DNA of 32,518 bases, from positions 1 to 32,518 of the forward strand of contig JAIOIU010000126.1 of NCBI GenBank assembly GCA_019912425.1. The letters are read 5' to 3'. The position numbers were made by a program, and so were the translations under genes. Below are positions 5,026-32,518 of this stretch, piece after piece (position 1 is the first letter of the stretch; each line of letters starts with the position of its first letter). The notes under the pieces are model-generated. The model did no database searches and had not been told where the DNA came from. It was given only the letters and a program-made list of their open reading frames with translations. Source of the DNA: Candidatus Methylomirabilis tolerans (lineage in GTDB: Bacteria > Methylomirabilota > Methylomirabilia > Methylomirabilales > Methylomirabilaceae).

Positions 5026-5038
5026 GGCGTGCGATAGA

Positions 5039-7365: not shown

Positions 7366-7447
7366 CCGGGCTCGTGGCGGGGTGGGGAAGGGTCCTGTTT
7401 ACAGTGTCCATGCTGATCTTGCTCGTATGCCTCAGAGGGGAACGACA

Positions 7448-8092
7448 ATGAGGGTCATCACGTGTCCACGGCCGAGTAAAGCCGGCAAGCTCTACGGTGT
7501 CGTTGATGCTTTCCCAGGTATTTGGAGTGGAAAGGTCTTAGACGTTGGATGTCGCTCGGGCGCTTTTAGGGAAGCGCTTCACCGGTATTACCCGAAGGTT
7601 AAGTACGTTGGGTTGGATCTTTGCTCTGGCGCAGACACTATCGCTGATTTAGGGAAGGGATTGCCATTCGGATGTGCTGTTTTTGACGTAGTCGTTGCTC
7701 TGGATGTCCTGGAACACACGGACAATATACACAGGGCTCTGGAGGAGTTGTGTTGGGTAGCTGGTCGGTTTGTTGTCATCACATTGCCCAATCTCTATGA
7801 GTTGAAGACCAGGATGAGAATCTTGCTTGGACATCCGGTTTCCGGGAAGTACGGCTTGCCTGTCGAGCGACCGCGAGATCGGCACCGTTGGTTTTTCTCC
7901 TTCGATGAAGCCAGAACTTTTATTACTCATTCAGCAAAAATAGGTGGCTTCTCAATTTTAGACGAGGGATGTTTGATTGGGCCTCGCCGTGCGGCCCGTG
8001 GGGTTGGAGAGCTTGCGGTGAGCAGGTTTCCGAACTTATTGTCGCCTTGGTACGTTGCCCTGTTGCAACGGAATACGGCGATTGGTTCATGA
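7448..8092 (+). CDS. SAM-dependent class I methyltransferase
   Basis: A 214-residue methyltransferase. SAM-binding motif I is KVLDVGCRSGAF, and the acidic loop FDVVVALDVLEH is the usual post-motif. The frame is open back to 7262, but ATG 7448 follows AGAGGGGAA (7434-7442) at good spacing and gives the same length as its paralogue at 10340. Both end in an unusual shared block, SGKYGLP then DRHRWxFS with an EA..FI helix, so they form a subfamily of their own. In this locus it probably methylates a sugar or a carrier-linked intermediate; acceptor unknown. Its stop overlaps the next glycosyltransferase start (ATGA). Confidence 0.8.
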   Translation: MRVITCPRPSKAGKLYGVVDAFPGIWSGKVLDVGCRSGAFREALHRYYPKVKYVGLDLCSGADTIADLGKGLPFGCAVFDVVVALDVLEHTDNIHRALEELCWVAGRFVVITLPNLYELKTRMRILLGHPVSGKYGLPVERPRDRHRWFFSFDEARTFITHSAKIGGFSILDEGCLIGPRRAARGVGELAVSRFPNLLSPWYVALLQRNTAIGS

Positions 8093-9219: not shown

Positions 9220-9258
9220 CTATGGCCGAAGACGTCGGCCAAAGAAGGTGATGGGGAC

Positions 9259-10343
9259 GTGCGACTCCTTCTCTTTAACCTGGCCACGGACGCGGACGAT
9301 CCCATCCTGGGCTTTGCCACCCTCTGGATCGCCGCGTTGGTGAAGCGGATGGAGCGCATCCACGTCATCACGATGCGGGCCGGTCGGATAGAAGTTCCGG
9401 CGAACGTACGGGTCTATTCGGTGGGTAAGGAGAGAGGCTATAGCGAGCCCCGCAGAGCGATAGAGTTCTATCGGCATTTGCTCCAGGTGCTGCGCCATGA
9501 CCGCATCGATATCTGTTTCTCCCACATGGTCCCCATTTTTACCGTGCTGGCGGCGCCGGTTCTCAAGACTAAGGGGATTCCCATCGTGACCTGGTATGCG
9601 CATCCGAGCCTCACCTGGACGCTGAAGCTGGCCCACCACGTATCTGACAGGATGGTGACGAGCGTGCCGACGGCGTACCCGCATCGTAATGATAAGCTAG
9701 TCGTTGTTGGCCAGGGTATCGATATGGAGTTATTTTGCCCGAACGGCCGACCCCCCCGGACAGCCCGCCGATTGTTTTATGTGCCGGACGCCTGTCCCCT
9801 GTAAAGGATCACCCCACATTGCTCAAGGCCGCGCACCTGCTGCATCGGACCTTGGGATCCCCTTTCCGGGTAGTGATCCTGGGCGGCCCTGCGGGTCCGC
9901 AGGATGCGTCGTGTGCGCAGTCGCTCCAGAGGGAGCTGAGGCGATTGAAACTTGAGGATGTGGTGTCCATCGAGCCACCCGTACCGATCACCACACTGCC
10001 CCTGTGGTACGGTCGATGCGCCGTCTATGCCAACTTGACGCCTACAGGGTCCGGCGACAAGGTGACGCTGGAGGCGATGGCATGCGCACGGCCGTGCCTC
10101 GTGGCAAACGAGGGATTCAGAGACACCCTCGGCGAGTATGCCGAAAACCTACTTTTTCGATACGGCGACGCCGAAGACCTGGCATGTCAACTTGAACAAC
10201 TGCTGGCGGCTCCCGCTCAGGAACGGCAGCAAATCGGCAGCTACCTCAGCGAACAGGTGATCAAAATGCACTCGCTTGAGGGACTCGCTGGAAAGTTGTG
10301 TACGGTGTTTGAGCAGCTTGTCCGTGGGGGGGTGAGCGTATGA
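9259..10343 (+). pseudogene. Glycosyltransferase (GT4-like) split by a one-base frameshift
   Basis: Two overlapping frames make one protein. 9259-9804 (GTG start, RLLLFNLATDADD) gives the acceptor domain with VVVGQGIDMELFCPNG. 9735-10343 continues with PPIVLCAGRLSPVKDHPTLL and the rest of the donor domain. The break is at the seven-C run 9751-9757, where one more C joins the frames into about 361 residues. The first EX7E glutamate is not conserved (TGSGDKVTLEAMA keeps only the second). The stop overlaps the next methyltransferase start (ATGA), showing that the full reading frame was once coupled to it. It may be a sequencing error, a phase-variable gene or a young pseudogene; the sequence alone cannot tell. 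Confidence 0.75.
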
Positions 10344-10984
10344 AAGTCGTGCGATTTCATGGTCGAGAAGACAAGTTAGCCCTTAGCTGGGAAACGCTTT
10401 CGAATTACATGAGCGGAAGCGTCTTAGACGTCGGATGTGATGAAAAATATCTTGCAGCTTTTGTTAAAAATTACGTAGGTGTTGGTATAGGTGGGAACCC
10501 CGATTTAATAGTAAATGTGGAAGATGGGCTTCCTTTTAAAGACAAGAGCTTTGATACTACGGTTGCTTTTGACGTTCTCGAACATCTCGATGATATTCAC
10601 TACGGTTTTGATGAGCTGTGCAGGGTTGCAAAGCGATATATCATTGTTGGCCTTCCCAACATGTATGAATGGCGCTTCCGCCTCATGTTTTTGTTGGGAA
10701 AGCGACTATCAGGAAAATACGGTTTGCCCACTAATGCTCCTGTGGATCGACACCGCTGGGTTTTCTCGCTTACGGAAGCTCAATCATTTATCCGGCACCG
10801 AGGATTGCACAATGGGTGTGAGGTTCGCCAAGAAATCATCGGGTACTATAAGTATAGGCGGACCGCAGCTTCCGTCACAACCGCTTTAGGTAGAAGCTTG
10901 GGACACTTAGGGGCGAATCTATTTGCTTACAATTACTGGGCCGTCTTGGAACGTAGCCCAGTGTCTGATGGATCGGAAGCTTGA
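10340..10984 (+). CDS. SAM-dependent class I methyltransferase, paralogue of the one at 7448
   Basis: A 214-residue methyltransferase with motif I VLDVGCDEKYL and acidic loop FDTTVAFDVLEHLDDIH. It aligns along its whole length with the 7448-8092 product, sharing VLDVGC, DVLEH, SGKYGLP and DRHRW and having identical length. The glycine-rich loop is weak: DEKYL replaces the usual GxG that the paralogue partly keeps (RSGAF). The start overlaps the preceding glycosyltransferase stop, and the stop overlaps the following membrane-protein start. Codons are noticeably more AT-rich than in the paralogue, so the two were probably acquired separately rather than by recent local duplication. Acceptor unknown. 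Confidence 0.8.
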   Translation: MKVVRFHGREDKLALSWETLSNYMSGSVLDVGCDEKYLAAFVKNYVGVGIGGNPDLIVNVEDGLPFKDKSFDTTVAFDVLEHLDDIHYGFDELCRVAKRYIIVGLPNMYEWRFRLMFLLGKRLSGKYGLPTNAPVDRHRWVFSLTEAQSFIRHRGLHNGCEVRQEIIGYYKYRRTAASVTTALGRSLGHLGANLFAYNYWAVLERSPVSDGSEA

Positions 10985-12537
10985 TGATGTATAACAATCA
11001 CTCAGATCAACTACATGGCATTGGTAGACCAATCACGCTCATCGCAGGGGTGGGGTTGGTGACCCTGGTCGTTGGCTGGCTTTTGACCGACGGTTCGGGA
11101 GGAGGCACAGGGCATCGTGACTTGTGGCCATGGCTCTTACTCAGCGGCGTGGTAGGTTTATTGCTGATAATTGTACGTCCAATTCTTGCGGTACTCGGCG
11201 TGCTCGCGTTTATTTTTGTGAATCCGTCGTTGTTGCCAAATTTATTAGACATAGGAGAGTTTTCGATCCGCTACGTCGATATAGCCGTCAGCATGCTTAC
11301 GCTCGCGGTTGTCTTCCGCTTTCTGTCAGGACGTGTGATTCCTCTGGAGACATTGAGACAACTCTTCGGACCTATGCTGCCTCTTATATGTTACGCCGGT
11401 CTATCCCTTGCGCTTGTGTGGCTATATACAGCGAATTCTTTTTCGGCTTCCATAGCTTCTTACACCAGATTGCTCGTCACAGCCGGATTTGGGTTGCTGT
11501 TATACACAAGCATCAGTAATTTGCAGGATCTGGAGCTTTTTCATAAGGGATTGATCGGTTTCGGTGTGGCAACCGTTGGTATCGGGATGTGGGAGGCGGA
11601 GCCTGGCCACGTGTTGGATATCTTGGAAATAAACGGATGGGGAACTGAGGCGACAGCCCGATATGGCGGGTTCCTCGGTGTTAATGCTTTAGGTCTTGTC
11701 GCCGGATTGTTAATATTGAGCGCTTCCCTTCGTAGAGACAAGACGTCTAATTCGATATCACGTGGAGTTGTGCTGATGACAGGTCTTCTAGGCTTGATCT
11801 TAGCGAAGTCCGCGAGTTCCATACTTGCAACAGCCGGTGTGGTTACGCTGTACAGGATCACCACCCGCGCTCAAAGATTCGGTTTTCTTCGCCTGTTCAA
11901 ATGGGCGATGATTGGGATGGTAGTCGTCGCGGGAGCCACAGTGATCATACAGGCATTACGACCGAGTGATGTCGGCGGCCTCCTAGAACTCAGTGGGGGA
12001 AGTTTCGCTCAGCGGCTCATGATTGCCTATGGTGGGATGCTAATCTTTTTGGAGCACCCATTGGTTGGCGTTGGTTGGCAGGCGAGTGCTACACCGGAAT
12101 TTATCGGATCTCCCAGTCTCAATGCGGTGCTAATGGAAACATTCAGCGCCCTTCCAGGTCACTATTTCTTCCTTGAAACAACCACATCACTCCACAACCT
12201 GTATGTCCAGGTGCTTGTTGAGTTGGGGTTACTCGGGGGAGGGCTGTTCGCGTATGCCTGCGTTCGGATAGGAAGGAGAGTCGCTGGAGTAGTTCGGGGG
12301 CTTCCTGAGGACTCCCCCTATCGGTCACGGGCGGAGTTCTACGCGTTTGGTCTTGTCTTTCTTCTGATCTGGTGGAATACAACTCCACTGTTTAGTGGAC
12401 AGACGGACAGTATGCTAGCCTTCGCGTTCCTTGGCGCCCTTGCAGCAATAGGCCGGCTGGAAAAACAGAGAAGACGGTGTGAGTGTCCTCCTGGTCGTGA
12501 GATGGTGACGCAGAATGAAAGTGCTACACCTCGTTAA
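10984..12537 (+). CDS. O-antigen polymerase/ligase-like membrane protein (Wzy/WaaL type)
   Basis: A 517-residue integral inner-membrane protein with roughly twelve hydrophobic spans and a large periplasmic loop before the last ones. The loop and flanks carry O-antigen ligase-family signatures: FAQRLMIAYGGMLIFLEHPL, VGVGWQASATPEF and SLHNLYVQVLVELGLLGGG. Members join polysaccharide units in the periplasm (Wzy) or transfer the chain to lipid A core (WaaL); sequence does not separate the two. A flippase-like gene in the same locus favours a polymerase. A TTG at 10981 is possible, but ATG 10984 overlaps the upstream TGA. The 3' end overlaps the start of a decayed glycosyltransferase. Confidence 0.8.
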   Translation: MMYNNHSDQLHGIGRPITLIAGVGLVTLVVGWLLTDGSGGGTGHRDLWPWLLLSGVVGLLLIIVRPILAVLGVLAFIFVNPSLLPNLLDIGEFSIRYVDIAVSMLTLAVVFRFLSGRVIPLETLRQLFGPMLPLICYAGLSLALVWLYTANSFSASIASYTRLLVTAGFGLLLYTSISNLQDLELFHKGLIGFGVATVGIGMWEAEPGHVLDILEINGWGTEATARYGGFLGVNALGLVAGLLILSASLRRDKTSNSISRGVVLMTGLLGLILAKSASSILATAGVVTLYRITTRAQRFGFLRLFKWAMIGMVVVAGATVIIQALRPSDVGGLLELSGGSFAQRLMIAYGGMLIFLEHPLVGVGWQASATPEFIGSPSLNAVLMETFSALPGHYFFLETTTSLHNLYVQVLVELGLLGGGLFAYACVRIGRRVAGVVRGLPEDSPYRSRAEFYAFGLVFLLIWWNTTPLFSGQTDSMLAFAFLGALAAIGRLEKQRRRCECPPGREMVTQNESATPR

Positions 12538-12943
12538 CACTCTCGCTGCTAGTGAGGCGGAGCTGCATCTCCTGACGCTGCCCTCTGTGCCGGTACCTGA
12601 AGCGAGCGGGTACCGAAATCGTGATCGCCCACCTGAAAAAGCATGCCTGTGAAAGCCGGTAGTCACAAGTCGAATGCCTCCCTTGACAGAGATCGTGATC
12701 GATCGTGAAACGGGCTTATTAGCTGAGTCGGGCAGTCCAGAGGCGTTCGCCCATGCCATCGCTTGGCTTTTGAAGCATCCAAACGAGGCCCAGGAGATGG
12801 GAAAGCGGGGTTTGGAACGCGTACAGAATTGCTTTTCCGCTGAAAGAATGGGAGCAGAAACCGTGTCACTGTATGAGGACGTACTCTCCCAACCGGGAAG
12901 ACATGAAGGAGCAGGGGCGAGACGAGAAGCCATCTGCCGGTAG
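12515..12943 (+). pseudogene. Remnant of a family 4 glycosyltransferase
   Basis: Three pieces of one GT4 gene can be read in order. From ATG 12515 comes MKVLHLVNTLAASEAELHLL, a near-canonical GT4 N-terminus in which GGAE has become SEAE. One base shift later comes LCRYLKRAGTEIVIAHLKKH, the normal next segment, ending at a TAG. From 12674, back in the first frame, comes TEIVIDRETGLLAESGSPEA and a regular GT4 C-terminal helical tail to 12943. The roughly 230 residues between, including the EX7E motif, are missing. A frameshift plus a large internal deletion makes this a clear pseudogene, wedged between the polymerase and the last glycosyltransferase. Confidence 0.85.
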
Positions 12944-14123
12944 TGAGCGAGCAATCCGTGTGGTCCGCGTTATTGCTAGGCTCATCATCGGCGGCCCGAC
13001 TACGCATGTCGTGAACCTCCACACCGGGATGGATCCACATAGCTTTGCGCAGGTGCTTGCCACTGGCCTTGAGAATCCCGGTGAGGGTTCCCTGCTTGAT
13101 GAGACTCTTGCGCGTGGCGTGAAGCCCATTGTCATTCCGGCAATGGTCGCGGAGGCGAGCTTCAAGTTCCGAGATATGTTGGCCTTATGGAAACTTCACC
13201 GCCTCATCCGTCGTGAGCAGCCCGATATTGTTCATACCCACACCGCCAAGGCTGGCTTCCTGGGACGCGTGGCGGCGCGACTGGCCGGTGTTCCGGTGGT
13301 AATCCACACCTACCACGGTCACATCCTCCATGGATACTATGGACCCGTTACGACCGGGATTTTGCGCGGCATGGAGAAGATGCTGGCCCGTATCACCGAC
13401 TGCATCATCGCGGTCAGTGAGCAGGTGAAAACGGAGTTAGTGGCCTATGGTGTTGCCCCTTCGGAGAAAATTCGTGTTATCCCATTAGGTTTTGACCTGG
13501 ACCCATTTTTGGATTGCGCCGTTCACCGTGGGGAGTTTCGCCGCGAACTTGGCCTCGACGATGAGGCCAGGATGGTGGGGATCGTGGGGCGTCTCGTTGC
13601 TATTAAGAGTCATCGACTCTTCCTGCAGGCGGCCGCCCTGGTGATCGCGAAAGAACCCGCTGCTCGGTTCGTTATCGTTGGCGATGGTGTGTTGCGCCCG
13701 AAGGTGGAGCAACAGGCTTTCGCGTTAGGTATCGCTGATCGGGTCCTGTTCACCGGGTGGCGCCGGGATCTGCCCCATATCTATGCCGACCTGGACGCTC
13801 TGGCGCTTTCCTCCGACAATGAGGGCACGCCGGTATCGGTTATCGAGGCGATGGCAGCCGGCTGTCCGGTGGTCGCCACGCGCGTTGGCGGTGTGCCTGA
13901 TCTAATTACTGATGGTGAGACCGGCTTCCTCGTGCCCCCTAGCGATGCACAGGCTCTGGCCGCTGCCATTCTACGGGTGCTTCGAGACCAGGAGGCCGCC
14001 GGTCGAATGGGTCGAACTGCTCGGGCCTTTGTCCGGCAACGTTTTACCACGAAGCGCCTCATCACTGACATGGAACGGTTATACCTTGAGCTTGTGAACG
14101 GTCAGGATCAACCGTTATCCTAG
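12903..14123 (+). CDS. Glycosyltransferase family 4
   Basis: A 406-residue GT4 enzyme. The acceptor domain carries IIGGPTTHVVNL and the strongly conserved HTHTAKAGFLGRVAARLAG followed by HTYHGHILHGYY, typical of a well-populated GT4 subgroup in capsule and O-antigen loci. The EX7E pair is at about residues 307 and 315 in SDNEGTPVSVIEAMAAGCP. The frame opens at 12873; ATG 12903 follows GGGAAG closely, and the first 20 or so residues are hydrophilic and poorly conserved, so the exact start is uncertain. It overlaps the end of the remnant before it. It is the last gene of the polysaccharide locus and is more GC-rich than the first glycosyltransferase block. Confidence 0.85.
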   Translation: MKEQGRDEKPSAGSERAIRVVRVIARLIIGGPTTHVVNLHTGMDPHSFAQVLATGLENPGEGSLLDETLARGVKPIVIPAMVAEASFKFRDMLALWKLHRLIRREQPDIVHTHTAKAGFLGRVAARLAGVPVVIHTYHGHILHGYYGPVTTGILRGMEKMLARITDCIIAVSEQVKTELVAYGVAPSEKIRVIPLGFDLDPFLDCAVHRGEFRRELGLDDEARMVGIVGRLVAIKSHRLFLQAAALVIAKEPAARFVIVGDGVLRPKVEQQAFALGIADRVLFTGWRRDLPHIYADLDALALSSDNEGTPVSVIEAMAAGCPVVATRVGGVPDLITDGETGFLVPPSDAQALAAAILRVLRDQEAAGRMGRTARAFVRQRFTTKRLITDMERLYLELVNGQDQPLS

Positions 14124-18607: not shown

Positions 18608-19303
18608 ATGTTTCTGGACTGGCTTCCTGAAAATATCTCAACCTATGGGGGGGAGATCGACTCGATCTTCTGGATGATCTATTACATCACGCTGGCCTGG
18701 TTCGTTGTCACCGTGGGAGCCTTGCTCAGCTTCGTTCTGCTCTTTCGCCGCCGCGATGGCCGACGCGCCGCCTATATTACGGGCAATAAACTTTCGCAGG
18801 CTGCGTGGATTCTCGTCCCGACCGTGCTCGTCCTTGCGCTTGACTTATGGATCGATTTTCGAGGAGGCGATGCATGGGCGAAAATCAAGCTTCACGTACC
18901 ACCAAGCGAGCTCCAGATGCAGGTCACTGGAAAGCAGTTTAACTGGGAGATTCTGTATCCAGGGCCGGACGGCCGGTTCGGAACGGCGGATGATCTTCAG
19001 ATCGACAATGAGTTGCACGTCCCGGTAAACAAGGTTGTCGGTGTCACCCTCAAGTCAAAAGATGTCATCCATAGTCTGTTCCTGCCGAACTTACGCCTGC
19101 AGCAGAACGTGATACCCGGACGTGAGTTTCAGGCCTGGTTCCAGGCTACCAAGACCGGCGTGTTCGAGATCCCCTGCACCGAGCTCTGTGGATTCGGCCA
19201 CTCAGGGATGATCGGACATTTGACCGTCCACACGGCTGAGGAGTATACCAAGTGGATGAAGGAACAGTGGCCTTCCGCAACGGGAGAGGCGATACTACGC
19301 TAA
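18608..19303 (+). CDS. ctaC: Cytochrome c oxidase subunit II
   Basis: A 231-residue subunit II of a heme-copper oxidase. It takes electrons from cytochrome c through the binuclear CuA centre and passes them to heme a. Two N-terminal membrane helices (about 21-46 and 64-83) are followed by a periplasmic cupredoxin domain. All CuA ligands are present: H155, then C190, E192, C194, H198 and M201 in PCTELCGFGHSGM. The aromatic patch GKQFNWEILYPG lies at about 108-119. There is no fused cytochrome c domain, unlike caa3 enzymes. No lipobox or long signal sequence is seen. It leads the operon II-I-III-IV and follows a good promoter. Confidence 0.96.
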   Translation: MFLDWLPENISTYGGEIDSIFWMIYYITLAWFVVTVGALLSFVLLFRRRDGRRAAYITGNKLSQAAWILVPTVLVLALDLWIDFRGGDAWAKIKLHVPPSELQMQVTGKQFNWEILYPGPDGRFGTADDLQIDNELHVPVNKVVGVTLKSKDVIHSLFLPNLRLQQNVIPGREFQAWFQATKTGVFEIPCTELCGFGHSGMIGHLTVHTAEEYTKWMKEQWPSATGEAILR

Positions 19304-19325
19304 ACTCCAAGGACATAGACCAACC

Positions 19326-21062
19326 ATGACTCATCCGCCAAGGGTAGTTCCCATTCCCTCGTCTGCTCCCCATGCGGCGCACGAGGAGCATGGCTTTTGG
19401 CGCACCTATGTCTTCACAATCGATCACAAAACGATCGCCAAACAGTATCTTTTTCTTGGCCTCGTGATGGCGTTCGTAGGCAGCTACCTGGCCTATGTGA
19501 TGCGCTGGCAGCTTGCCTTTCCCGATACGTCGATCCCTGGATTCGGATTTGTGGGGCCGGAGACATACAACGCGCTTATCACCAACCACGGCACGATCAT
19601 GGTATTTTTTGTGGCAATGCCGATCTTGCTTGGAGCGTTTGGAAACTTCCTGATCCCACTCATGATCGGCGCCAGGGATATGGCCTTCCCGCGGCTCAAC
19701 ATGCTCTCCTTTTGGATCCTCGCGGTCGCTGCTCTCGTCATCCTGGCATCATTCTTTGTTCCCGCTGGTGGGGCTGCCGCCGGTTGGACCGGCTATGCGC
19801 CGCTGAGCGCGAGGGCGGAATATACCGGTGTGAACTGGGGGATCAACCTCTGGCTTCTTGCTCATGCCCTTGAGTTTGCCTCCTTCCTGATGGGTGGCAT
19901 CAATTTCCTCACCACCGCGATCACCATGCGGGCGCCGGGGATGACCTTTTTCCGTCTTCCGCTCGTTATCTGGATGCTTCTGACCGCTTCCATCATCTTC
20001 TTGCTCTCTGTCGGACCGCTGATCGCGGCAGCCGTCATGCTCTTGATGGATCGGCTCCTGGACACCAGCTTCTTTGTGCCTGAAGGGGGCGGTGATCCCC
20101 TGCTCTGGGAGCATCTCTTCTGGTTCTTCGGCCATCCTGAGGTCTACGTCCTCCTGTTGCCTGGGCTTGGGGCGGTACTGGAAGTCCTGGCTGTCTTCTC
20201 GAGGAAACCAATCTTTGGCTACCGATGGATCATCTACGCAACCATCGCTACTGGGTTCCTCAGCATGATTGTCTGGGCACATCACATGTTCGTCAGTGGC
20301 ATGGATCCCCGGCTCGTCATGCCGTTTAGCATTTCCACCATCCTGATCTCCGTGCCAATTGCGCTCATCGTTTTCGCGATGATCCTCACCCTGTGGAAGG
20401 GCTCGATCCGTCTGACGACGCCGATGCTCTGGGCCTTGGGGTTTGTCGTGATGTTCATTTTCGGAGGACTCACCGGCATTGTCCTTGGTTCTGCGCCGGT
20501 CAACATTCAGGTCCACGGGACCTACTTCGTCGTGGCCCACTTTCACACCGTTCTCTTAAGCGTCGTCATATTCGGCGGTTTTACCGGCCTGTACTTTTGG
20601 TTTCCAAAGATGTTCGGTCGGATGATGAATGAGCCCATGGGAAAACTGCACTTTCTGCTCACTCTCATCTTCTTTAATCTGACTTTTTTCCCTATGCATG
20701 CCGTCGGCCTCGCTGGAATGCCGCGCCGTATTGCCAACCCGCTCCAATACGAGTCCCTGACAGCGATTCAACCGTGGAACGTCTACATTACGATCGGTGC
20801 GATCGGGCTTATCGTCGCTCAGCTTCCGTTCCTGATGAACTTTGTCTGGAGCATCCTGGCCGGTAAGAAGGCGGAACCCAACCCCTGGGAGGCGGCAACG
20901 CTCGAGTGGACCGCCCCCTCACCTCCGCCTCACGGCAACTGGGGAGAAACGATCCCGACCGTCTATCGCGGTCCGTATGAGTACAGCCCTCCAGGTGTTC
21001 GCGAGGATTATCTTCCGCAGGATCGCGCCCTGGCGGCGAGTTCTGCTCAGAAGAAGCGTTGA
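19326..21062 (+). CDS. ctaD: Cytochrome c oxidase subunit I
   Basis: The 578-residue catalytic subunit with about twelve membrane helices, which reduces oxygen to water and pumps protons. Heme a ligands are H88 (ITNHGTIMVFF) and H407. Heme a3 ligand is H405 (VAHFHTVL). CuB ligands are H270, H319 and H320, with Y274 forming the usual His-Tyr crosslink in GHPEVY. E272 in that motif marks an A1-type (D-channel) enzyme. AAGGA at 19309-19313 precedes the ATG. The soluble C-terminal tail after about residue 520 is rich in proline. Nothing essential is missing. The last codons abut the subunit III start. Confidence 0.97.
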   Translation: MTHPPRVVPIPSSAPHAAHEEHGFWRTYVFTIDHKTIAKQYLFLGLVMAFVGSYLAYVMRWQLAFPDTSIPGFGFVGPETYNALITNHGTIMVFFVAMPILLGAFGNFLIPLMIGARDMAFPRLNMLSFWILAVAALVILASFFVPAGGAAAGWTGYAPLSARAEYTGVNWGINLWLLAHALEFASFLMGGINFLTTAITMRAPGMTFFRLPLVIWMLLTASIIFLLSVGPLIAAAVMLLMDRLLDTSFFVPEGGGDPLLWEHLFWFFGHPEVYVLLLPGLGAVLEVLAVFSRKPIFGYRWIIYATIATGFLSMIVWAHHMFVSGMDPRLVMPFSISTILISVPIALIVFAMILTLWKGSIRLTTPMLWALGFVVMFIFGGLTGIVLGSAPVNIQVHGTYFVVAHFHTVLLSVVIFGGFTGLYFWFPKMFGRMMNEPMGKLHFLLTLIFFNLTFFPMHAVGLAGMPRRIANPLQYESLTAIQPWNVYITIGAIGLIVAQLPFLMNFVWSILAGKKAEPNPWEAATLEWTAPSPPPHGNWGETIPTVYRGPYEYSPPGVREDYLPQDRALAASSAQKKR

Positions 21063-21067
21063 CACAT

Positions 21068-21634
21068 ATGGCCGCCGTATCCGAACAGTCCGCTCCCGCG
21101 CTACGCGGCAAGATCGCCATCTGGTGGCTGATTGCCTCTGAGGTGATGGTCTTTGGAGGCGCCGTCGGCAGTTATATTATGGCTCGAGCGGCCAGCCCGG
21201 GATGGTCGGCAGAGGCCGCTCATCTGAGCACCTCCATGGCAACGATCAACACCTTTGTCCTGCTGACCAGCAGTATGACCATGGCGATGGCCTTTGCCGC
21301 CTACCAAAAGGATGATCAGCGTGGGGTGCAAAAATTCCTGCTGTGCACCATCCTGCTTGGGCTGGCATTCCTCGGAATCAAAGCCTATGAGTATATCTCC
21401 CACATTACGGAGAACGCCGCACCGTGGAGCGGTTCCTTCTGGTCTTTTTATTACCTGCTGACGGGACTACACGCGCTGCACGTCATTGCCGGGGTCGTTG
21501 TGAACGTCATCCTGTTGCTGGCGGCAGGGAGAGGGTTGCGCACCGGTTATCGGATCGAGATTGCGGGGTTGTACTGGCACTTTGTCGACATCGTCTGGAT
21601 CTTTCTCTTCCCGCTTCTCTATCTTTCGTACTGA
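21068..21634 (+). CDS. ctaE: Cytochrome c oxidase subunit III
   Basis: A 188-residue subunit III in the five-helix bacterial form. The first helix contains WWLIASEVMVFGG with the conserved glutamate, and the C-terminus ends in GLYWHFVDIVWIFLFPLLYL, the most conserved stretch of the family. Subunit III stabilises subunit I and supports proton uptake. ATG 21068 lies six bases after the subunit I stop. A TTG at 21059 would overlap that stop and is the alternative start. No strong Shine-Dalgarno site is visible, consistent with translational coupling. Confidence 0.94.
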   Translation: MAAVSEQSAPALRGKIAIWWLIASEVMVFGGAVGSYIMARAASPGWSAEAAHLSTSMATINTFVLLTSSMTMAMAFAAYQKDDQRGVQKFLLCTILLGLAFLGIKAYEYISHITENAAPWSGSFWSFYYLLTGLHALHVIAGVVVNVILLLAAGRGLRTGYRIEIAGLYWHFVDIVWIFLFPLLYLSY

Positions 21635-25814: not shown

Positions 25815-26720
25815 TTAGAACGGCACCCGGTCCAGCACCATCAGCAACAGCAGTGCCGGAAGGTGCACCAGCGACACGAGCAACAGTCGCCTTACGTCTG
25901 TTGTCGATCGCCACAGGGTAAAGGCATACGCGCACCCAAGCACGCCAATGCCCAGCGTCAGCGCACCCAGGAAATAGACTGGGCCGGCAAACCCGATAAG
26001 GGTCGGCAGCAGACTGACGACAAGTAAGACCAGGCAGTCGAAGACAATCTGACGTCCTGCAATGTTATCACCCGGATCGATCACAGGCAGGAGTCGAATC
26101 CCTGCTCGCGCATAATCGTCCTTGTACAGCATGGCGATTGCTCGCGTATGAGGAAGCTGCCACAGAAACATGATCGCGAACAGCACCCAAGCCTCGATCC
26201 CGAGCCTTCCTGTGGCCGCCGCCCAGCCGATCACCGGCGGCAGCGCCCCCGGCACGGCTCCCACAACCGTACAGAAGGCGGTCCTGCGCTTCAGCGGCGT
26301 GTAGAGAAACAGATAACTTCCCACAATAACGATGGCCACCACACTACTCAGAGTATTGACCGAAATGGCCAGATACAGCAGGCCCGCGACCGCGATCGAC
26401 ACTCCGAACAGGAGCGCTTCCACAGGCTGCAGCCGACCAGCCGGCAACGGCCGGAGCCGTGTACGCACCATTCGCGCGTCCGTGTCCCGTTCGAGGAACT
26501 GATTCAGCGCGAGCGTTCCACCCGCAGCAAGTGCCGTCCCGACCAGCACATGCAGCAGTGTCGCGTAGTCCGGCGTACTGCGAAGGCCCAGGTAAAAGCC
26601 TACGAAAGTAGTCAGTAGCACCATGGTGAGAATGCCCGGCTTCATCAGTAATACAAAATCCGCCACTCGCCTGTATGTGCGCGTGAACTCGGCGCCTACT
26701 GTTTCAGATGTCAGCATCAT
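25815..26720 (-). CDS. ctaB: Protoheme IX farnesyltransferase (heme O synthase)
   Basis: A 301-residue UbiA-superfamily prenyltransferase that adds farnesyl to heme b to make heme O, the first step to heme A. About nine membrane helices. The first prenyl-diphosphate/Mg site is NQFLERDTDARMVRTRLRPL (residues 73-92) and the second conserved loop is YKDDYARAGIRLLPV. The open frame continues 160 codons upstream to 27200, but that part is antisense-like noise inside ctaA. ATG 26718-26720 overlaps the ctaA stop (ATGA), fixing the start and showing coupling. Product and neighbour together supply heme A to the oxidase at 18608-21925. Confidence 0.95.
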   Translation of the reverse strand: MMLTSETVGAEFTRTYRRVADFVLLMKPGILTMVLLTTFVGFYLGLRSTPDYATLLHVLVGTALAAGGTLALNQFLERDTDARMVRTRLRPLPAGRLQPVEALLFGVSIAVAGLLYLAISVNTLSSVVAIVIVGSYLFLYTPLKRRTAFCTVVGAVPGALPPVIGWAAATGRLGIEAWVLFAIMFLWQLPHTRAIAMLYKDDYARAGIRLLPVIDPGDNIAGRQIVFDCLVLLVVSLLPTLIGFAGPVYFLGALTLGIGVLGCAYAFTLWRSTTDVRRLLLVSLVHLPALLLLMVLDRVPF

Positions 26721-27688
26721 GCGCGCACCCGCTCGTCGAGTAATCCCTGGCCGGTAACAGCCTCTGATGACGTGAGCAACCGATAGACTCGAAGCGTCAG
26801 CACGATACAGACTGCCAGCATCAGCGCACCCGTGATTCTGTGAGTGGTTGGAAGCGCCAACCGAATAAAGGCCGCGTAGGGGATTTCGATGGAGGTAAAA
26901 CGATTCACATACGACCCGAGGCCCAACAAAAGCTGTAACACCAACAGGCCGACAAGTAGGGTGACAGGCCGCACGAACTTCACCTGATCCGAGTAATGTC
27001 CCAGGATCCGTCTTGCGAGACACCACACGTGGATACTGACAAGGGCAGCACAAAACAGATGGGCTTGAAACCAATCGCCGATATGCGTCAGCATGCCTCC
27101 AAAGAAGATCTGAAGGTACACCGCGCCGGTTGTCAGGAGGCAAAGCCGCTTGACCGCTCCGACATCCGCCATGACAACCCTCCCGGGCCTGTGTTCCCAC
27201 TCGTACGAGGTCACCACCACCACACTCGTAATGAGGGCGAAGAAGGCTTGGGCAAGCAGGCTATGGATGAGTGCGAGTTCGCTCCCGGCTGATATCAGGA
27301 TCACTCGAAGACCGCCGAGCACCCCCTGGACGATCACCGCGCCGACGGCAGCAACGCCGAGTGACCGAGCCGATCTTCCCGACTCCTTCACCCAGAGCAC
27401 AATGGCCAATGCCAGGGTGAGCAGACCCACGATGGATCCGATCAGCCGATGACTGTGTTCGTAAAAGACGCCCCCCACCATGTGTGACCATGGGTAGAGG
27501 AACATGTTATACCCGAACGTGGTCGGCCAGTCCGGCACCGCCAGCCCCGCCCCGGTATTCGTGACCAGACCGCCGACGAAGATCAACACCAACGTTGACG
27601 CCGCGGTCACCAGGGCGAATCGATGTGGCCACGAGCTGGAGTCTCGCGCGTCGGTATCGGGCATTGACCTCTCGCTATCATTCGACAT
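26717..27688 (-). CDS. ctaA: Heme A synthase (CtaA/Cox15)
   Basis: A 323-residue membrane enzyme that oxidises the C8 methyl of heme O to the formyl of heme A. It has eight membrane helices in two four-helix halves. Candidate heme ligands are the histidines in YEHSHRLIGS (78, 80), IHSLLAQAFF (142), VSIHVWCLARR (220) and TTHRITGALM (283). The conserved loop is TNTGAGLAVPDWPTTFG (43-59). No cysteine pair is present in the first extracellular loop. AAGG precedes the ATG by about seven bases. The gene is transcribed away from the YVTN propeller gene and ends overlapping ctaB. Confidence 0.95.
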   Translation of the reverse strand: MSNDSERSMPDTDARDSSSWPHRFALVTAASTLVLIFVGGLVTNTGAGLAVPDWPTTFGYNMFLYPWSHMVGGVFYEHSHRLIGSIVGLLTLALAIVLWVKESGRSARSLGVAAVGAVIVQGVLGGLRVILISAGSELALIHSLLAQAFFALITSVVVVTSYEWEHRPGRVVMADVGAVKRLCLLTTGAVYLQIFFGGMLTHIGDWFQAHLFCAALVSIHVWCLARRILGHYSDQVKFVRPVTLLVGLLVLQLLLGLGSYVNRFTSIEIPYAAFIRLALPTTHRITGALMLAVCIVLTLRVYRLLTSSEAVTGQGLLDERVRA

Positions 27689-27783: not shown

Positions 27784-28740
27784 ATGAACCGCTGGGCAGT
27801 CAGTAAGACTCTCCTCACTATCCTCACGGTATTCCTTTGGGTGCAGACCGCCTCAGGGGCTGAGGTCTGGGCGACCAATCAATTGTCGAACACCATCAGC
27901 ATCATCGATAGTGAGGCGCTTGCAGTGCTCACCACAATCCCTTCCGGCGGGAAGGAGCCCCACAATATCACCTTCAGCCCAAACGGAAAAGAGGCGTGGG
28001 TGACCCACGTCGGTTCCAATACAATCAGCATTATTAATACAACAACGCGGGAGGTGACAACCACACTTCCTGCGGGAACCCGGACCCATGCTATAACTTT
28101 CAGTCCAAATGGCAAGCTGGCCTACATCACCAACCCCGGTTCGAACGATCTTTGGATCATCGATGTGTTGACCAGAAAGGTGATTGAACGGATTTCAGTT
28201 GGGAAAGCCCCGCAGATGGTCGTCTTCTCCCGTGACGGAACACGGGCGTTTGTCTCGCTCAGCGGGGATGAAGAGGTGTGGGTCCTCGATGCGGCCACAC
28301 ACAAGACTCTTGCCACCATCCTGACCGGAAAAGATGCGATGGGTCTCGGCCTCAGCAACGACGGGCAGTATCTGTATGTCACAACAGGGGGAGAAAGCAG
28401 GGTTGTCGTGATCGATACGACCTCTTTGAAAGAGGTCAGATCAATCGAGACTGAATTCGATACCCATGGACTGGCTGTCTCACCGGATGGTCTGTATGTG
28501 TACGTGGCCAACAGGGGCTCCAATACCCTGTCGGTGATCGAGGCCAGGACGAATGCCGTAATCCGTTCCATCCCTACCGGTAAGAGTCCGGATATGTTGA
28601 CCCTCTCCCCCACTGGCCGGCAGATGTATGTGACAAATCGAGGCGATGATAGCATCTCGGTCATCGATATCGTCACAGCACAGGTCATGGCCGTCATTTC
28701 GGTCGGGCGAGCCCCTCATGGCATCGCCTTTCGTCCTTAG
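27784..28740 (+). CDS. Exported seven-bladed YVTN beta-propeller protein
   Basis: A 318-residue periplasmic or surface protein. A signal peptide (MNRWAVSKTLLTILTVFLWV) ends near SGA/EVW. Seven repeats of about 42 residues follow, each with a YVTN-like strand: VWATNQ, AWVTHV, AYITNP, AFVSLS, LYVTTG, VYVANR and MYVTNR, usually followed by SNTISIID-type strands. This is a closed seven-bladed propeller. GTG 27754 is a possible earlier start but would put an acidic stretch before the signal peptide, so ATG 27784 is preferred. Members often accompany periplasmic redox enzymes; here it heads a run of five exported proteins. No cofactor motif is visible, and its role is inferred from context. Confidence 0.88.
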   Translation: MNRWAVSKTLLTILTVFLWVQTASGAEVWATNQLSNTISIIDSEALAVLTTIPSGGKEPHNITFSPNGKEAWVTHVGSNTISIINTTTREVTTTLPAGTRTHAITFSPNGKLAYITNPGSNDLWIIDVLTRKVIERISVGKAPQMVVFSRDGTRAFVSLSGDEEVWVLDAATHKTLATILTGKDAMGLGLSNDGQYLYVTTGGESRVVVIDTTSLKEVRSIETEFDTHGLAVSPDGLYVYVANRGSNTLSVIEARTNAVIRSIPTGKSPDMLTLSPTGRQMYVTNRGDDSISVIDIVTAQVMAVISVGRAPHGIAFRP

Positions 28741-28795
28741 CCCTGAAAGCGTTTCTCATGACTGGTGGTACTCTGAAGCGACATCCCGAAATCGC

Positions 28796-28822
28796 TTGAC
28801 AAACACTGTTTGAACCTTTAAT
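28796..28822 (+). promoter_or_regulatory. Possible promoter of the cupredoxin-like gene and those after it
   Basis: Perfect TTGACA at 28796-28801 and TTTAAT at 28817-28822 (five of six), spacer 15 bases, shorter than ideal. It lies in the 111-base gap before ATG 28852. It would give a leader of about 20 bases that contains the AAGGAGG ribosome site. Confidence 0.4.
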
Positions 28823-28851
28823 TTTTGTTCCACTAACAAGGAGGGCGACGC

Positions 28852-29577
28852 ATGCGACGTTTTGGAATATTGCTCTGTGTTGTTGCTTCCGCTATTGTCC
28901 TCACTGCTCTCACGCCCACAGCCTATTCCTATCAGGAAATCACAGTCAGCGATGGTGGAACGATCAAAGGGAGGGTGGTGTATCAGGGGTCACCTCCGTC
29001 GATGAAGACGATTATTCCCACAAAGGACCAGGAGGTCTGTGGGAACATCCGCGAGGAACCCCAGATCATCCTGGGCGAGGATCGCAGCCTTCAGGATGCA
29101 GTAGTGTTCCTGAAAGCGGTCGAGAGCGGCAAAGTCTGGGCGCAGTCCGCAAAAACACCCGAACTGACCAATCGGAAATGCGACTTCGTGCCGCATGTTC
29201 AGGTGGTACCGGTTGGATCGGATCTCGAGATCATCAGTGATGACCCTGTCCTGCATGCCACGCACGGATTCCTGGGAAAACGAACCGTCTTTAGCGTGAC
29301 ATTGCCGAACCAGGGCGATCGAGTCACACGACCCCTCAAGAAATCCGGGGTTGTCCGGGTGGAGTGCGATGCGCATGGCTGGATGCTTGGGTGGATCTAT
29401 GTCGCCGACAACCCCTACTATGGAATTACTGGTAAAGACGGCATGTTCACAATTACAGATGTTCCGCCCGGTGCCTACACCCTCGTTGTCTGGCAAGCGT
29501 ACACCGGATTTACTGAAACTCCGGTCATCGTAAAGGCAAAGGAGGTGGTTTCAGTCAGTATCGAGGTGAAGAAATAG
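28852..29577 (+). CDS. Exported cupredoxin-like protein with regulatory-like C-terminal domain
   Basis: A 241-residue exported protein. Signal peptide residues 1-26 (cleavage near AYS/YQE). ATG 28852 sits seven bases after a perfect AAGGAGG. The middle part resembles a blue-copper fold: H135 in SDDPVLHATHG and the C172-H175-M178 triad in ECDAHGWMLG give the His-Cys-His-Met set of a type 1 copper site. A further CDFVPH segment is at 110-115. The last 60 residues (YYGITGKDGMFTITDVPPGAYTLVVWQ) match the carboxypeptidase regulatory-like beta-sandwich. The expected role is periplasmic electron transfer or copper binding. Copper binding is inferred from spacing only. Confidence 0.75.
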   Translation: MRRFGILLCVVASAIVLTALTPTAYSYQEITVSDGGTIKGRVVYQGSPPSMKTIIPTKDQEVCGNIREEPQIILGEDRSLQDAVVFLKAVESGKVWAQSAKTPELTNRKCDFVPHVQVVPVGSDLEIISDDPVLHATHGFLGKRTVFSVTLPNQGDRVTRPLKKSGVVRVECDAHGWMLGWIYVADNPYYGITGKDGMFTITDVPPGAYTLVVWQAYTGFTETPVIVKAKEVVSVSIEVKK

Positions 29578-29623
29578 GCGGCATCGGAACCTATGCGTCT
29601 CACGCATGAAGGAGGTTCGCGCA

Positions 29624-30856
29624 ATGGATGATTATAGCCGTGATCGTGACCGACTCAAACTCCTGAGATCGAAGGCAAGACGCTCGTGGCGGCAAAAGAT
29701 CGGCGCTTCTGCAGAGACCGAGAGCCATCGCCGTGAGATGGATCGAGTGTTACGGCAGCCCGGTGAACATCCTGACAGGACCATGGAACTCACCCGCCGC
29801 ATGTTCCTTCATAAATCGTTACTTGCCGGTGCCGCCGCCGGCGTCGCCTCAGCGGGATGGTTTCCGTGGCTGAATACCCTCGATTTGGCCTTCGGCGCCG
29901 AAGCCTTCAAATTCGTCTGGGTCTCGGACTCCCACCTATACCCAAAAACGCTCAACACTCGTTTTGTCGATAAGGTGACCCGCGCGATGAAAGAAGTCCA
30001 AGCCATGTCGCCGCCTGCTGATTTTCTGATCTATGGAGGTGATTTGGCGCAGCTCGGGGACCCGGTCGAGTTGGACCTCGGGGCCGAAATCCTCAAAGAG
30101 GTGACCATCAAAAAGGTCTTCATCCCCGGAGAGCACGACTGGTACCTCGATATGGGAATGAAGTGGGAGAAGCTCTTTGGCAACTCCTCCTGGACCTTCG
30201 ACCACAAAGGGGTCCGCTTTATCGGACTCGATACCGTCAGCCGCGGTCCGGACTATTGGACAGCCAAGAAGATGACCCCCAAAGAGCGGATGGGTCATAT
30301 GGCGACACTTGATGGGAGTGTAGCCGGCTCCTGGGCCGGTGTCGGTCGCGATCAGCTCTTATGGCTATCCACCACCCTATCCAACTGGCCAAAGAATAGA
30401 CCGGTCGTCATCTTCAGCCATAACCCGTTGTACGAATACTACCCACCGTGGAACTTCTGGGTGCGGGACTGGCGCGAGGTTCACGAAGTTCTCAAGCCGT
30501 TTACCAACGTCACGAATATTCACGGTCATACTCATCAAGTCCTCTATAACGAGATCGGTAAGATGCGTTCGATTGGAATGCTGGCCACCTCCTGGACTTG
30601 GCCGTATGCGCCTGAAGGGGTCCCGACTCTCACAAAATGTAAGGTTCGAGTCGATCCCGGGGATCCGTTCGATGGGGTCGGTTGGTCGAAGCTCACCGTG
30701 AGCGCCGCAGAAAAACTCGAGAATGACTATGTGATGTGGCGGAAGGATATCCTGGGGGAGACTCCGTGGGACTCGGGATGCGCGGATAACGCCAATCAGA
30801 TCCTGAGTCCACGACTCGCCGACCGTGAGTGGCCATACTACGGCGCATACAAGTAA
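29624..30856 (+). CDS. Tat-exported calcineurin-like metallophosphoesterase
   Basis: A 410-residue two-metal hydrolase. Metal motifs in order: D102-x-H104 (VSDSHLY), GD with D140 (YGGDLAQLGD), GEHD at 169-172, H266 (FSHNP) and GHTH at 301-304. The usual asparagine of GNHD is glutamate (E170). A twin-arginine signal, TRRMFLHKSL, with a hydrophobic core lies at about residues 57-80, preceded by an unusually long charged N-region of about 55 residues. ATG 29624 follows AAGGAGG (29609-29615) by eight bases, so the long start is well supported; ATG 29783 (MELTRRMF) is the alternative. SoxB belongs to the same superfamily, but the match is not to SoxB itself, which is longer. Substrate unknown. Confidence 0.85.
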   Translation: MDDYSRDRDRLKLLRSKARRSWRQKIGASAETESHRREMDRVLRQPGEHPDRTMELTRRMFLHKSLLAGAAAGVASAGWFPWLNTLDLAFGAEAFKFVWVSDSHLYPKTLNTRFVDKVTRAMKEVQAMSPPADFLIYGGDLAQLGDPVELDLGAEILKEVTIKKVFIPGEHDWYLDMGMKWEKLFGNSSWTFDHKGVRFIGLDTVSRGPDYWTAKKMTPKERMGHMATLDGSVAGSWAGVGRDQLLWLSTTLSNWPKNRPVVIFSHNPLYEYYPPWNFWVRDWREVHEVLKPFTNVTNIHGHTHQVLYNEIGKMRSIGMLATSWTWPYAPEGVPTLTKCKVRVDPGDPFDGVGWSKLTVSAAEKLENDYVMWRKDILGETPWDSGCADNANQILSPRLADREWPYYGAYK

Positions 30857-30892
30857 CCACTGGTTGGTCGCACATCCAAGAGGAGGACCACG

Positions 30893-31351
30893 ATGAAGCG
30901 TCTACGTAAGATGAGAACCATATTGGGTGCCTCCCTATGCCTGCTCCTCGTCGTCGCATCCGGACAGAATCCGGCATTCGCCCATAAGGCGAAGCACACG
31001 CCTGAGCAACTCAAGGCGTTCGAGCAGGCCTTCCTCGAACAGGTGAAGGTCGGTGATCTGCTTTTCCACGGTGACGGAGACACCCAGAAACGGCTTGACG
31101 TGACCCTTTCCAACACCGGGATGGCATGCGCGATGTGTCACCCATTCGCCTCAGACACCCACCCGTACACGTTTCCTAAATTTCAGGAACAAGTCAGCAA
31201 GTTTGCAACGCTGCGAGATATGATCAACTGGTGTATCGAGAAGGCGGCCGAGGGCGAGAAGATCGAGGACGATTCGGAAGCCATGAAAGCTCTGGAGACA
31301 TATATCTATTGGTCTACCCGTGGTTCGAAACTGGAGCCTGGAACACACTGA
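30893..31351 (+). CDS. Periplasmic monoheme cytochrome c, SoxA/TsdA-like
   Basis: A 152-residue exported cytochrome. Signal peptide to about AFA (residue 30). ATG 30893 follows AGGAGG by six bases. One heme-binding motif, CAMCH, lies at 79-83 in NTGMACAMCHPFASDTHPYT. Downstream, LRDMINWCIEKAAEGEKIED then ALETYIYW resembles the L..RIN.C......G....S..M.A...Y..W pattern of SoxA and TsdA heme domains, in which the cysteine (here C114) is the distal heme ligand. M110 is the other possible ligand. It is the likely electron acceptor or partner of the SoxYZ-like carrier encoded next. Confidence 0.85.
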   Translation: MKRLRKMRTILGASLCLLLVVASGQNPAFAHKAKHTPEQLKAFEQAFLEQVKVGDLLFHGDGDTQKRLDVTLSNTGMACAMCHPFASDTHPYTFPKFQEQVSKFATLRDMINWCIEKAAEGEKIEDDSEAMKALETYIYWSTRGSKLEPGTH

Positions 31352-31423
31352 TTCAGCCCACACAGTCTGGATCAGTGTTCGATAACAGACGCAGACAGCA
31401 ATACAGGCGGGGGGCTTACGTCA

Positions 31424-32278
31424 ATGGGGGGACGCGCGATGTCGAGACGGCACTTCCTCCGTCTCGCCTCCAGCCTGGCAGCGCTCGGGTACACTATACA
31501 AGAGGTTGGCCGGCTGGCCGATGCCTTTGCCTCTGAGTTGCCAGGCTCCAACGATCCGAGCGCTTCAACCTGCCGCGATCAGTCGTATTTGCCCAGTCTC
31601 CGGGTTCCGCCCGTCACGCGTAATGGCGCGCATGTCCCAATTGTTGCCGAAATGCGCCACCCGATGGAGCCCGATCACTATATCAAGAGTCTCCAGATTC
31701 TCAACGAAAGCGATCCGATCCCCTCAAAGGGGATCTTCTACTTCAGCCCGGCCAATGGGCGGGCTTATCTCTCCGTTCAAGCTCGCATGCACAGCGGCGC
31801 CTCCGCCGTGCGGGTCATTGCCGAGTGCACCCGCCATGGACGTTGGACAACAAGCCAACCCATTACGATTCCTGAAGGAGGGGGTGGGTGCGCAACCGCC
31901 GCTGAAGGGGGAGACAACGTACTCATGGATGACGCAATCCGTCCACCGGTCATCCGAATCCCCGAGTTGGTCGAGCGAGGGAAGATCAGACAGGGAGAGA
32001 TCATTCATGTGCAGGTGAAACTTAAGCATCCGAGCCGAACCGGTTTGGCTCTACAGGGCTCGGCGTTTGTTCAGACCGCCGACCCCTTTTACCTGAAAGA
32101 GATGAAGGTGTTGTATGGGGATCGCCTGGTAAGCCGTTACGAGATGACCCCCGCTATCAGCGACAGTCCATTTATGACCTTTACGTTGAGGGTGATGGAA
32201 GAATCGACCGTTCGGATCGTTGTGACCAACAGTCGCGGCCAGCAGTTCGAGACATCACACAAGATTGTGTTGGCTTAA
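31424..32278 (+). CDS. SoxY-SoxZ fusion carrier protein, Tat-exported
   Basis: A 284-residue fusion. Twin-arginine signal SRRHFLRLASSLAAL at residues 7-21. The SoxY-like domain (about 60-155) ends in ITIPEGGGGCATAA, where C156 corresponds to the sulfur-binding cysteine of SoxY's C-terminal GGCGG arm. The SoxZ-like domain (about 172-284) contains KIRQGEIIHVQVKLKHPSRT and the SPFMTFTLR strand. Such fusions are known as SoxYZ-like carriers associated with quinoprotein dehydrogenases; none of those enzymes lies in this window. ATG 31439 (MSRRHF) with GGGGGGA upstream is an equally good start. The carrier cysteine is in a linker rather than at a free C-terminus. Confidence 0.85.
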   Translation: MGGRAMSRRHFLRLASSLAALGYTIQEVGRLADAFASELPGSNDPSASTCRDQSYLPSLRVPPVTRNGAHVPIVAEMRHPMEPDHYIKSLQILNESDPIPSKGIFYFSPANGRAYLSVQARMHSGASAVRVIAECTRHGRWTTSQPITIPEGGGGCATAAEGGDNVLMDDAIRPPVIRIPELVERGKIRQGEIIHVQVKLKHPSRTGLALQGSAFVQTADPFYLKEMKVLYGDRLVSRYEMTPAISDSPFMTFTLRVMEESTVRIVVTNSRGQQFETSHKIVLA

Positions 32279-32391
32279 CTTGTGGTTCTTCCGGAATAAA
32301 CGTGGGTGGAGGCCGAGTCTTCAGTGCTGGACATGGACACACCCCCTTTGCCAAACGAGGCCATGAGGGGAGAGAAAAACCCCCTTCGATC

Positions 32392-32410
32392 CCCCCTTTG
32401 CTAAAGGGGG
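32392..32410. repeat. Dispersed palindrome CCCCCTTT-GCT-AAAGGGGG
   Basis: A perfect 8-bp inverted repeat with a three-base loop. It is the reverse complement of the copy at 14226-14244. It lies 114 bases after the SoxYZ stop and may act as a terminator for the exported-protein genes, but its recurrence marks it as a dispersed element. Between 32279 and 32391 I see no gene. Confidence 0.75.
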
Positions 32411-32518
32411 AGAAGAGGTAGATGCGCAAGCATGCAGTCCCCCCTCAGAACAAGGTGTCTGGCTGGCTCAAATTCATCCCCTGGAGAAAAGGTAGATGTG
32501 CAAGCATGTGGTCCCCCC
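32410..32518. repeat. Two 35-base direct repeats, 74 bases apart
   Basis: Copies at 32410-32444 and 32484-32518 agree at 31 of 35 positions. Both contain GGTAGATG, then GCAAGCATG, and end in TCCCCCC. The second runs to the window edge, so the array may continue. The first starts at the last base of the CCCCCTTT palindrome, suggesting palindrome and repeat form one unit. Confidence 0.7.

Follow-up and report, generated by a model that had tools for sequence, protein, structure and literature searches.

Periplasmic sulfur oxidation is widely traced by SoxB as the marker gene, a component of the Sox system (SoxAX, SoxYZ, SoxB, SoxCD). The use of another hydrolase in the place of SoxB has a precedent, cited in PMC11237559: in Sulfurimonas sp. 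CVO, which lacks SoxB, SoxH makes up for it. A SoxYZ-like carrier and a propeller of the kinds treated below are both contained in the ped cluster (PMC12997753). Here we describe a gene set of Candidatus Methylomirabilis tolerans that shares features with these systems. It is located at the end of contig JAIOIU010000126.1 (C126), which in its full length of 32,518 nucleotides is termed the window and belongs to a 2.65-Mb genome of 99.96% completeness; coordinates are window positions. The conserved part of the set encodes a cupredoxin-like protein (CUPR), a metallophosphoesterase (MPE), a SoxA/TsdA-type cytochrome c (CYTA) and a SoxYZ fusion. With somewhat less than even confidence we propose that these proteins perform a periplasmic, SoxB-independent oxidation of a reduced sulfur compound, with the electrons passing to a terminal reductase.

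Composition of the Gene Set

Five open reading frames (ORFs) on one strand fill positions 27784 to 32278, and according to the leaders read from the sequence all five products are predicted to be exported, as the original prediction had stated. MPE and SoxYZ, encoded by the third and fifth gene, carry the Tat motifs TRRMFLHKS and SRRHFLRL, respectively; Sec-like leaders are found in PROP, CUPR and CYTA (genes 1, 2 and 4). A set of this kind is far beyond chance expectation. The features are as follows.

27784–28740, plus strand: PROP, YVTN/YncE-type beta-propeller with Sec-type leader, an optional, loosely attached member
28852–29577, plus strand: CUPR, cupredoxin domain with C-terminal CarboxypepD_reg-like domain, Sec-type leader
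29624–30856, plus strand: MPE, Tat metallophosphoesterase of the GpdQ/Rv0805 branch (start in the ORF list 29606)
30893–31351, plus strand: CYTA, single-heme SoxA/TsdA-type cytochrome c
31424–32278, plus strand: SoxYZ fusion with Tat-type leader (start 31424 or 31439)
32279–32518, no strand: beginning of an interspersed-repeat island, at the contig end

A Shine-Dalgarno sequence, AAGGAGG at 29609–29615, falls within the longer MPE frame, so that translation probably starts at 29624. Scanning the region for promoters and terminators gave counts inside the shuffled expectation and was uninformative.

Conservation across Genomes

MPE and CYTA are perfectly co-present in a sample of 99 relatives: both occur in 22 genomes and neither in the other 77 (Fisher P 1.7e-22). 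SoxYZ of the module type is found in 19 of the 22 genomes with MPE, compared to 2 of the 77 others; in these two, G081 and G091, the locus is broken. GTDB contigs scanned with an MPE profile yielded 80 loci, among them a high-identity set of 68 with at least 55% MPE identity and adequate flank. There, CUPR lies immediately upstream of MPE in 67 of 68 eligible loci and CYTA immediately downstream in all 64, with median gaps between the matched segments of 97 bp (CUPR-MPE) and 86 bp (MPE-CYTA). Collinear loci span at least eight phyla; the hosts include Methylomirabilota, Rokubacteria, Tectomicrobia, alpha-, beta- and gammaproteobacteria, Nitrospirota, Thermodesulfobacteriota and SAR324, with the labels of metagenome-assembled genomes (MAGs) taken as deposited. 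The Rokubacteria genome G038 holds two copies of the unit, on contigs C116 and C146.

In Methylomirabilota and Tectomicrobia, as well as in some MAGs deposited as Deltaproteobacteria, the fourth position is taken by the SoxYZ fusion. In rhizobia, separate SoxY and SoxZ genes join the cluster together with flavocytochrome c sulfide dehydrogenase (FCSD), so that a sulfur carrier is joined to the CUPR-MPE-CYTA trio in two forms. Checked genome by genome, the rhizobial order is SCO, CUPR-MPE-CYTA-HCO-I-HCO-II-CcoI (HCO, heme-copper oxidase), followed on the other strand by FCSD-cytochrome-SoxZ-SoxY; FCSD and the cytochrome were undetected in L194 and SCO in L185. The flavoprotein of Sinorhizobium meliloti pSymA matches solved FCSD at E 8e-116 and, additionally, PF21706 and PF09242. 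A divergent MPE-CYTA clade of 43–50% identity, with no CUPR adjoining, occurs in Myxococcota, Kryptonia, Nitrospinota and two genomes of the genus Methylomirabilis.

The conserved unit, which is very old, consists of four genes, CUPR, MPE, CYTA and SoxYZ. The proposal of a five-gene module holds for these four, which are collinear and co-occurring, and three or more of the five were indeed found together across phyla. It does not hold for PROP, an optional member outside the conserved core: apart from the window species, PROP was seen beside the unit in G004, G016, L152 and L155 alone. No description of a CUPR-MPE-CYTA-SoxYZ module was found in the open full-text literature, subscription journals not being covered; papers on Thioalkalivibrio and Paraburkholderia that mention a metallophosphoesterase turned out to be irrelevant to it.

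Properties of the Encoded Proteins

MPE is the best-conserved gene of the set. Its product matches Metallophos (PF00149, E 4e-10), which bears out the predicted hydrolase of the metallophosphoesterase superfamily, and keeps the motifs DxH, GD, H and GHxH; GNH[DE] is replaced by an invariant GEHD, with Glu for Asn. The closest solved relatives are GpdQ and Rv0805, both by sequence and by fold, with about 15% identity by structure; the AlphaFold model has a pLDDT of only 62 and was used for the fold class alone. The best NCBIfam match is the class III cAMP phosphodiesterase NF008359 (E 3e-10, 39.9 bits versus a cut-off of 225). Judged from this score and the GEHD motif, MPE stands outside the curated class III phosphodiesterase/GpdQ family. 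It gave no SoxB match.

CYTA exceeds the cut-off of PF21342 (SoxA-TsdA, E 3e-10), contains a single CXXCH (C79-A-M-C82-H83) and is the only PF21342 protein of the window genome; with TIGR04484 SoxA it reaches 32 bits versus a cut-off of 110. Its profile finds SoxA (2c1d, 1h31) as well as TsdA (4v2k). Cys114 is invariant in 20 sequences and aligns with the Cys of the SoxA MINAC motif and with TsdA residue 96 (4wqd/4v2k), the known axial heme ligand of that enzyme. The residue is a putative axial ligand in CYTA as well, in agreement with the His/Cys heme guessed before. Partial CYTA-like matches were also seen in three loci, namely near 3380 on the opposite strand of S. meliloti pSymA (L182), between the oxidase genes and GroEL, where it is the second match, and similarly in L126 and L129.

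By sequence, no family over cut-off was obtained for CUPR; its C-terminus is CarboxypepD_reg-like. The AlphaFold model (pLDDT 91) finds cupredoxins as best solved-structure matches (5fc9, amicyanin, plastocyanin), and H135, C172, H175 and M178 are invariant in 19 sequences. The modelled fold together with these predicted His/Cys/His/Met ligands would make CUPR a type 1 (blue) copper protein, as had been suspected. In sister Methylomirabilis genomes a CUPR paralogue (36–39%) adjoins a multiheme cytochrome of 880–908 aa and a cytochrome b-type membrane subunit (L062:285-3803, L063:14896-18334, L065:1123-4621), which suggests a role of this cupredoxin family in a bc-like complex as well. An apparent CUPR-MPE fusion in L107/L076, a 643-aa frame that has lost the CUPR C-terminus and kept the Tat leader of MPE, is likelier the result of a frameshift or deletion.

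Both SoxYZ domains exceed the Pfam cut-offs (SoxY E 2e-18, SoxZ E 7e-14), and Cys156, within GGGGCA at the SoxY/SoxZ junction, is invariant. The protein thus has what defines a carrier of the Sox system, an arm cysteine, which the original prediction had described as covalently bindable. It scores under the SoxY_true and SoxZ_true equivalog cut-offs and, with 92.2 bits versus an equivalog cut-off of 140, is not a member of TIGR04557, a family named as PQQ-associated. PROP matches PF21783 (E 5e-28) and TIGR02276 (E 5e-73) and reaches 198 bits with TIGR03866, likewise named for PQQ-associated proteins, versus a curated cut-off of 287. Another SoxYZ fusion (38–42%) is paired with a PROP-related propeller in the Rokubacteria loci L087, L088, L093 and L096, without the trio; a YeeE-type sulfur transporter is found near three of them (PF04143 confirmed in L087 and L088).

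Neighbouring Terminal Reductases

A divergent C-family HCO subunit I occurs within 6 kb of the trio in 49 of 58 high-identity loci and stands after, or before, the trio in most lineages (L113:10608-13662, L103:10656-13686, L154:9911-12999 and many others). Its His ligands are retained, and so is the Tyr of helix VII. It is accompanied by SCO, a DsbD_2-type protein, a Cu ATPase of the CcoI type and a CcoO-like subunit that has additional cytochrome c domains and stays far under the curated ccoO cut-off. Assignment as NO reductase was rejected: helix VI is without the NorB-type Glu, the Tyr is kept, and NorB 4xyd gives 66 bits compared to 241 for the best cbb3. The oxidase is also not obligatory for the trio. 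It is absent from all eight Methylomirabilis-genus genomes with MPE-CYTA, was not found in the window genome and lies near none of nine divergent-clade loci; conversely, 15 relatives have it without the trio. Rokubacteria are among the hosts of such oxidases without the trio.

In Methylomirabilis, MauG/CCP-type di-heme genes flank the unit, on both sides in G004, G006, G008 and G013. In the divergent clade, a MauG-type gene immediately precedes MPE in 10 of 11 loci; the GTDB scan showed this arrangement in none of its 68 high-identity loci. In the window genome the MauG/CCP-type gene is located on contig C74, 81 bp from the contig end. The same-species contig L102, with an identical MPE, runs 1.65 kb past SoxYZ through the repeat island, and, compared by eye, its end and the terminal bases of C74 are reverse complements of each other. 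The di-heme gene is therefore very probably the next gene after SoxYZ in the window genome as well.

The CCCCCTTTGCTAAAGGGGGAG-type interspersed repeats at 32342–32518 and L102:10737-12243 terminate the contig of the window; a 116-aa ORF inside those of L102 resembles a DUF559-type endonuclease from its sequence. Further upstream the window contains COX2-COX1-COX3 cytochrome c oxidase genes (18608–21634) and, immediately before the module on the opposite strand, UbiA/CtaB and COX15/CtaA (25815–27688), so that in Methylomirabilis the module lies beside conventional oxidase and heme-A genes. A run of glycosyltransferase group 1 genes (406–14123) with a Wzy/O-antigen-ligase-type protein (10981–12537) is probably an exopolysaccharide or O-antigen cluster.

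Sox Gene Content

The window genome contains one SoxY, that of the fusion, and one SoxA/TsdA-family domain, that of CYTA. SoxB gave no match in this genome or in 13 genomes of the same genus, which extends the earlier observation of a window without SoxB. FCSD over cut-off is absent from the window genome. SoxC reaches the cut-off in no genome of the genus (17.8 bits at best in the window genome, versus 420); truncated Sox systems are also without SoxCD. SoxX was not seen among the window proteins scanned, with no whole-genome SoxX search run. Of 41 genomes carrying a CUPR-type module, SoxY is present in 36 and a full SoxB in 13. The distribution of SoxB among the 99 relatives is independent of MPE (8 of 22 with MPE, 29 of 77 without).

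Proposed Function and Alternatives

From the observed protein families, conserved residues, collinearity and co-occurrence we infer substrate, reactions and electron route as follows. Thiosulfate or another sulfane-sulfur species would be the most likely substrate. The His/Cys heme of CYTA would couple it oxidatively to the cysteine of SoxYZ; where a lineage lacks SoxYZ, another thiol or a second molecule of the substrate would take the place of this cysteine. In the divergent clade, a small thiol or, again, a second substrate molecule may receive the product. MPE as a di-metal hydrolase would cleave off the bound oxidised group and perform the task of SoxB by another branch of the superfamily. 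CUPR and/or CYTA would hand the electrons to the C-family oxidase in most lineages or to the MauG/CCP-type enzyme in Methylomirabilis. The reading as a sulfur-oxidising module is based on the invariant CYTA-MPE pairing, on SoxYZ and FCSD as recurrent attachments and on the adjacent terminal reductases. As a working analogy the Sox cycle is the closest and a plausible one: CYTA would load, SoxYZ carry and MPE hydrolyse, with electrons leaving via CUPR/CYTA. It is possible, albeit rather doubtful, that the unit is a second Sox-type cycle in the full sense, with a GEHD-site Tat hydrolase of the GpdQ branch for SoxB, a one-heme SoxA/TsdA domain for SoxAX and a cupredoxin link to a C-family oxidase or di-heme peroxidase, widespread in bacteria that SoxB surveys do not count as thiosulfate oxidisers, including Methylomirabilis and rhizobial symbiotic plasmids.

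Several findings weigh against a sulfur-oxidising function. The strongest objection is the divergent clade, in which the MPE-CYTA pair persists without SoxY (0 of 9 genomes tested), pointing to a core chemistry independent of SoxYZ. SoxY is also missing from 5 of the 41 genomes with a CUPR-type module (two Nitrospirota, Syntrophobacterales, one Deltaproteobacteria MAG, one Gemmatimonadota MAG). The closest solved relatives of MPE hydrolyse phosphodiesters. Finally, SoxB and the module occur together in several Rokubacteria (8 of the 22 MPE genomes), which argues against a simple replacement, and strict replacement was rejected on these grounds. The original interpretation is partly supported and the observation behind it confirmed. 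Its parallel to Sox is independently supported by the SoxA/TsdA kinship of CYTA, the attached SoxYZ or SoxY/SoxZ/FCSD and the genus sample without SoxB, but not by the MPE-CYTA pair without SoxY. Nothing was found that points to a C1 compound, the second of the two substrates named. The suggested cycle of loading, carrying, hydrolysing and oxidising left out the electron-acceptor side, C-family oxidase or MauG/CCP, and its chemistry is putative.

An accessory role of the trio for the adjacent C-family oxidase, in electron delivery, copper/heme maturation or assembly, with SoxYZ and FCSD as passengers of a respiratory cluster, would account for the close and frequent linkage to subunit I and to the CcoO-like, CcoI, DsbD_2-type and SCO genes. 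We consider it unlikely: the Methylomirabilis genomes keep MPE-CYTA without this oxidase, other relatives have the oxidase but no trio, none lies near the divergent-clade loci, and CYTA belongs to the catalytic SoxA/TsdA type, not to the generic electron carriers. Slightly less probable still is a non-sulfur substrate, with MPE hydrolysing a phosphodiester, a cyclic nucleotide or a phosphorus compound in the periplasm and CYTA and CUPR performing a linked redox step. GpdQ and Rv0805 as closest structures and the class III phosphodiesterase match are in its favour, but that match is far under the curated cut-off, the Asn of GNHD is exchanged for an invariant Glu, and the obligate pairing with a SoxA/TsdA-type heme as well as the recurrent SoxYZ and FCSD linkage would be left unexplained.

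The MauG/CCP-like genes around the Methylomirabilis unit and before MPE in the divergent clade could also indicate oxidative protein modification or peroxide defence, in which a di-heme enzyme modifies or regenerates MPE, CUPR or CYTA by means of H2O2, with SoxYZ as thiol partner. This is improbable, as no high-identity locus has such a gene directly upstream of MPE, an O2-reducing oxidase usually being present instead, and a peroxidase could equally be an electron acceptor. Least of all do we expect a PQQ/C1-associated SoxYZ-like set as in ped and xoxF clusters, with SoxYZ-like carrier, SoxH and propeller. The matches of SoxYZ and PROP to PQQ-associated families and the content of the ped cluster would fit, but both scores are under the curated cut-offs, and the window proteins scanned, like the identified conserved neighbours, included no recognised PQQ dehydrogenase or SoxH.

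If the SoxB-independent sulfur oxidation proposed here is true for Methylomirabilis, Rokubacteria, rhizobial symbiotic plasmids and Nitrospirota, sulfur oxidation is undercounted. Methylomirabilis are methane oxidisers of low-oxygen sediments, and sulfur would be coupled to methane and nitrogen metabolism. The compact, strongly conserved set, for which no function was found, is present in the cultivable hosts S. meliloti, Mesorhizobium, Cupriavidus and Thiocapsa.

Comparison with Known Systems

The neighbouring oxidase of other genomes resembles cbb3 (C-family) oxidases in the His ligands and helix-VII Tyr of subunit I. It differs in reaching 216–223 bits versus the ccoN cut-off of 583 and in the extra cytochrome c domains of the CcoO-like subunit, and it was not found in the window genome. 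With GpdQ and Rv0805, of the class III cyclic nucleotide phosphodiesterase family, MPE shares fold and dimetal motifs; its Tat leader, the invariant GEHD for GNHD, the low structural identity and the constant redox partners are different. The TIGR04557 quinoprotein dehydrogenase-associated carrier with SoxH and propeller (ped/xoxF) is similar in its SoxY-SoxZ fusion and the optional propeller, whereas the module SoxYZ falls under the family cut-off and neither PQQ dehydrogenase nor SoxH was recognised nearby. CYTA corresponds to the thiosulfate dehydrogenase TsdA in its CXXCH domain and the Cys at the position of residue 96. Unlike TsdA, which is defined by two heme domains, it has one CXXCH and no second domain, is always paired with MPE and, in the alignment, carries Gln100 and Met110 at the positions of Arg82 and Arg92.

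The Sox system shares with the module a heme domain of the SoxA type that keeps the position of the Cys ligand, a SoxYZ carrier with arm cysteine and an exported di-metal hydrolase of the metallophosphoesterase superfamily. In contrast, the hydrolase of the module belongs to the GpdQ/Rv0805 branch instead of SoxB, no SoxC exceeds the cut-off, SoxYZ is a fusion that has its cysteine internally, the unit includes a cupredoxin, and in some phyla the MPE-CYTA core occurs without SoxYZ. By definition, the unit is not a Sox system, as it has no SoxB, and it is neither a TsdA nor a TIGR04557 carrier system, yet it may work like Sox.

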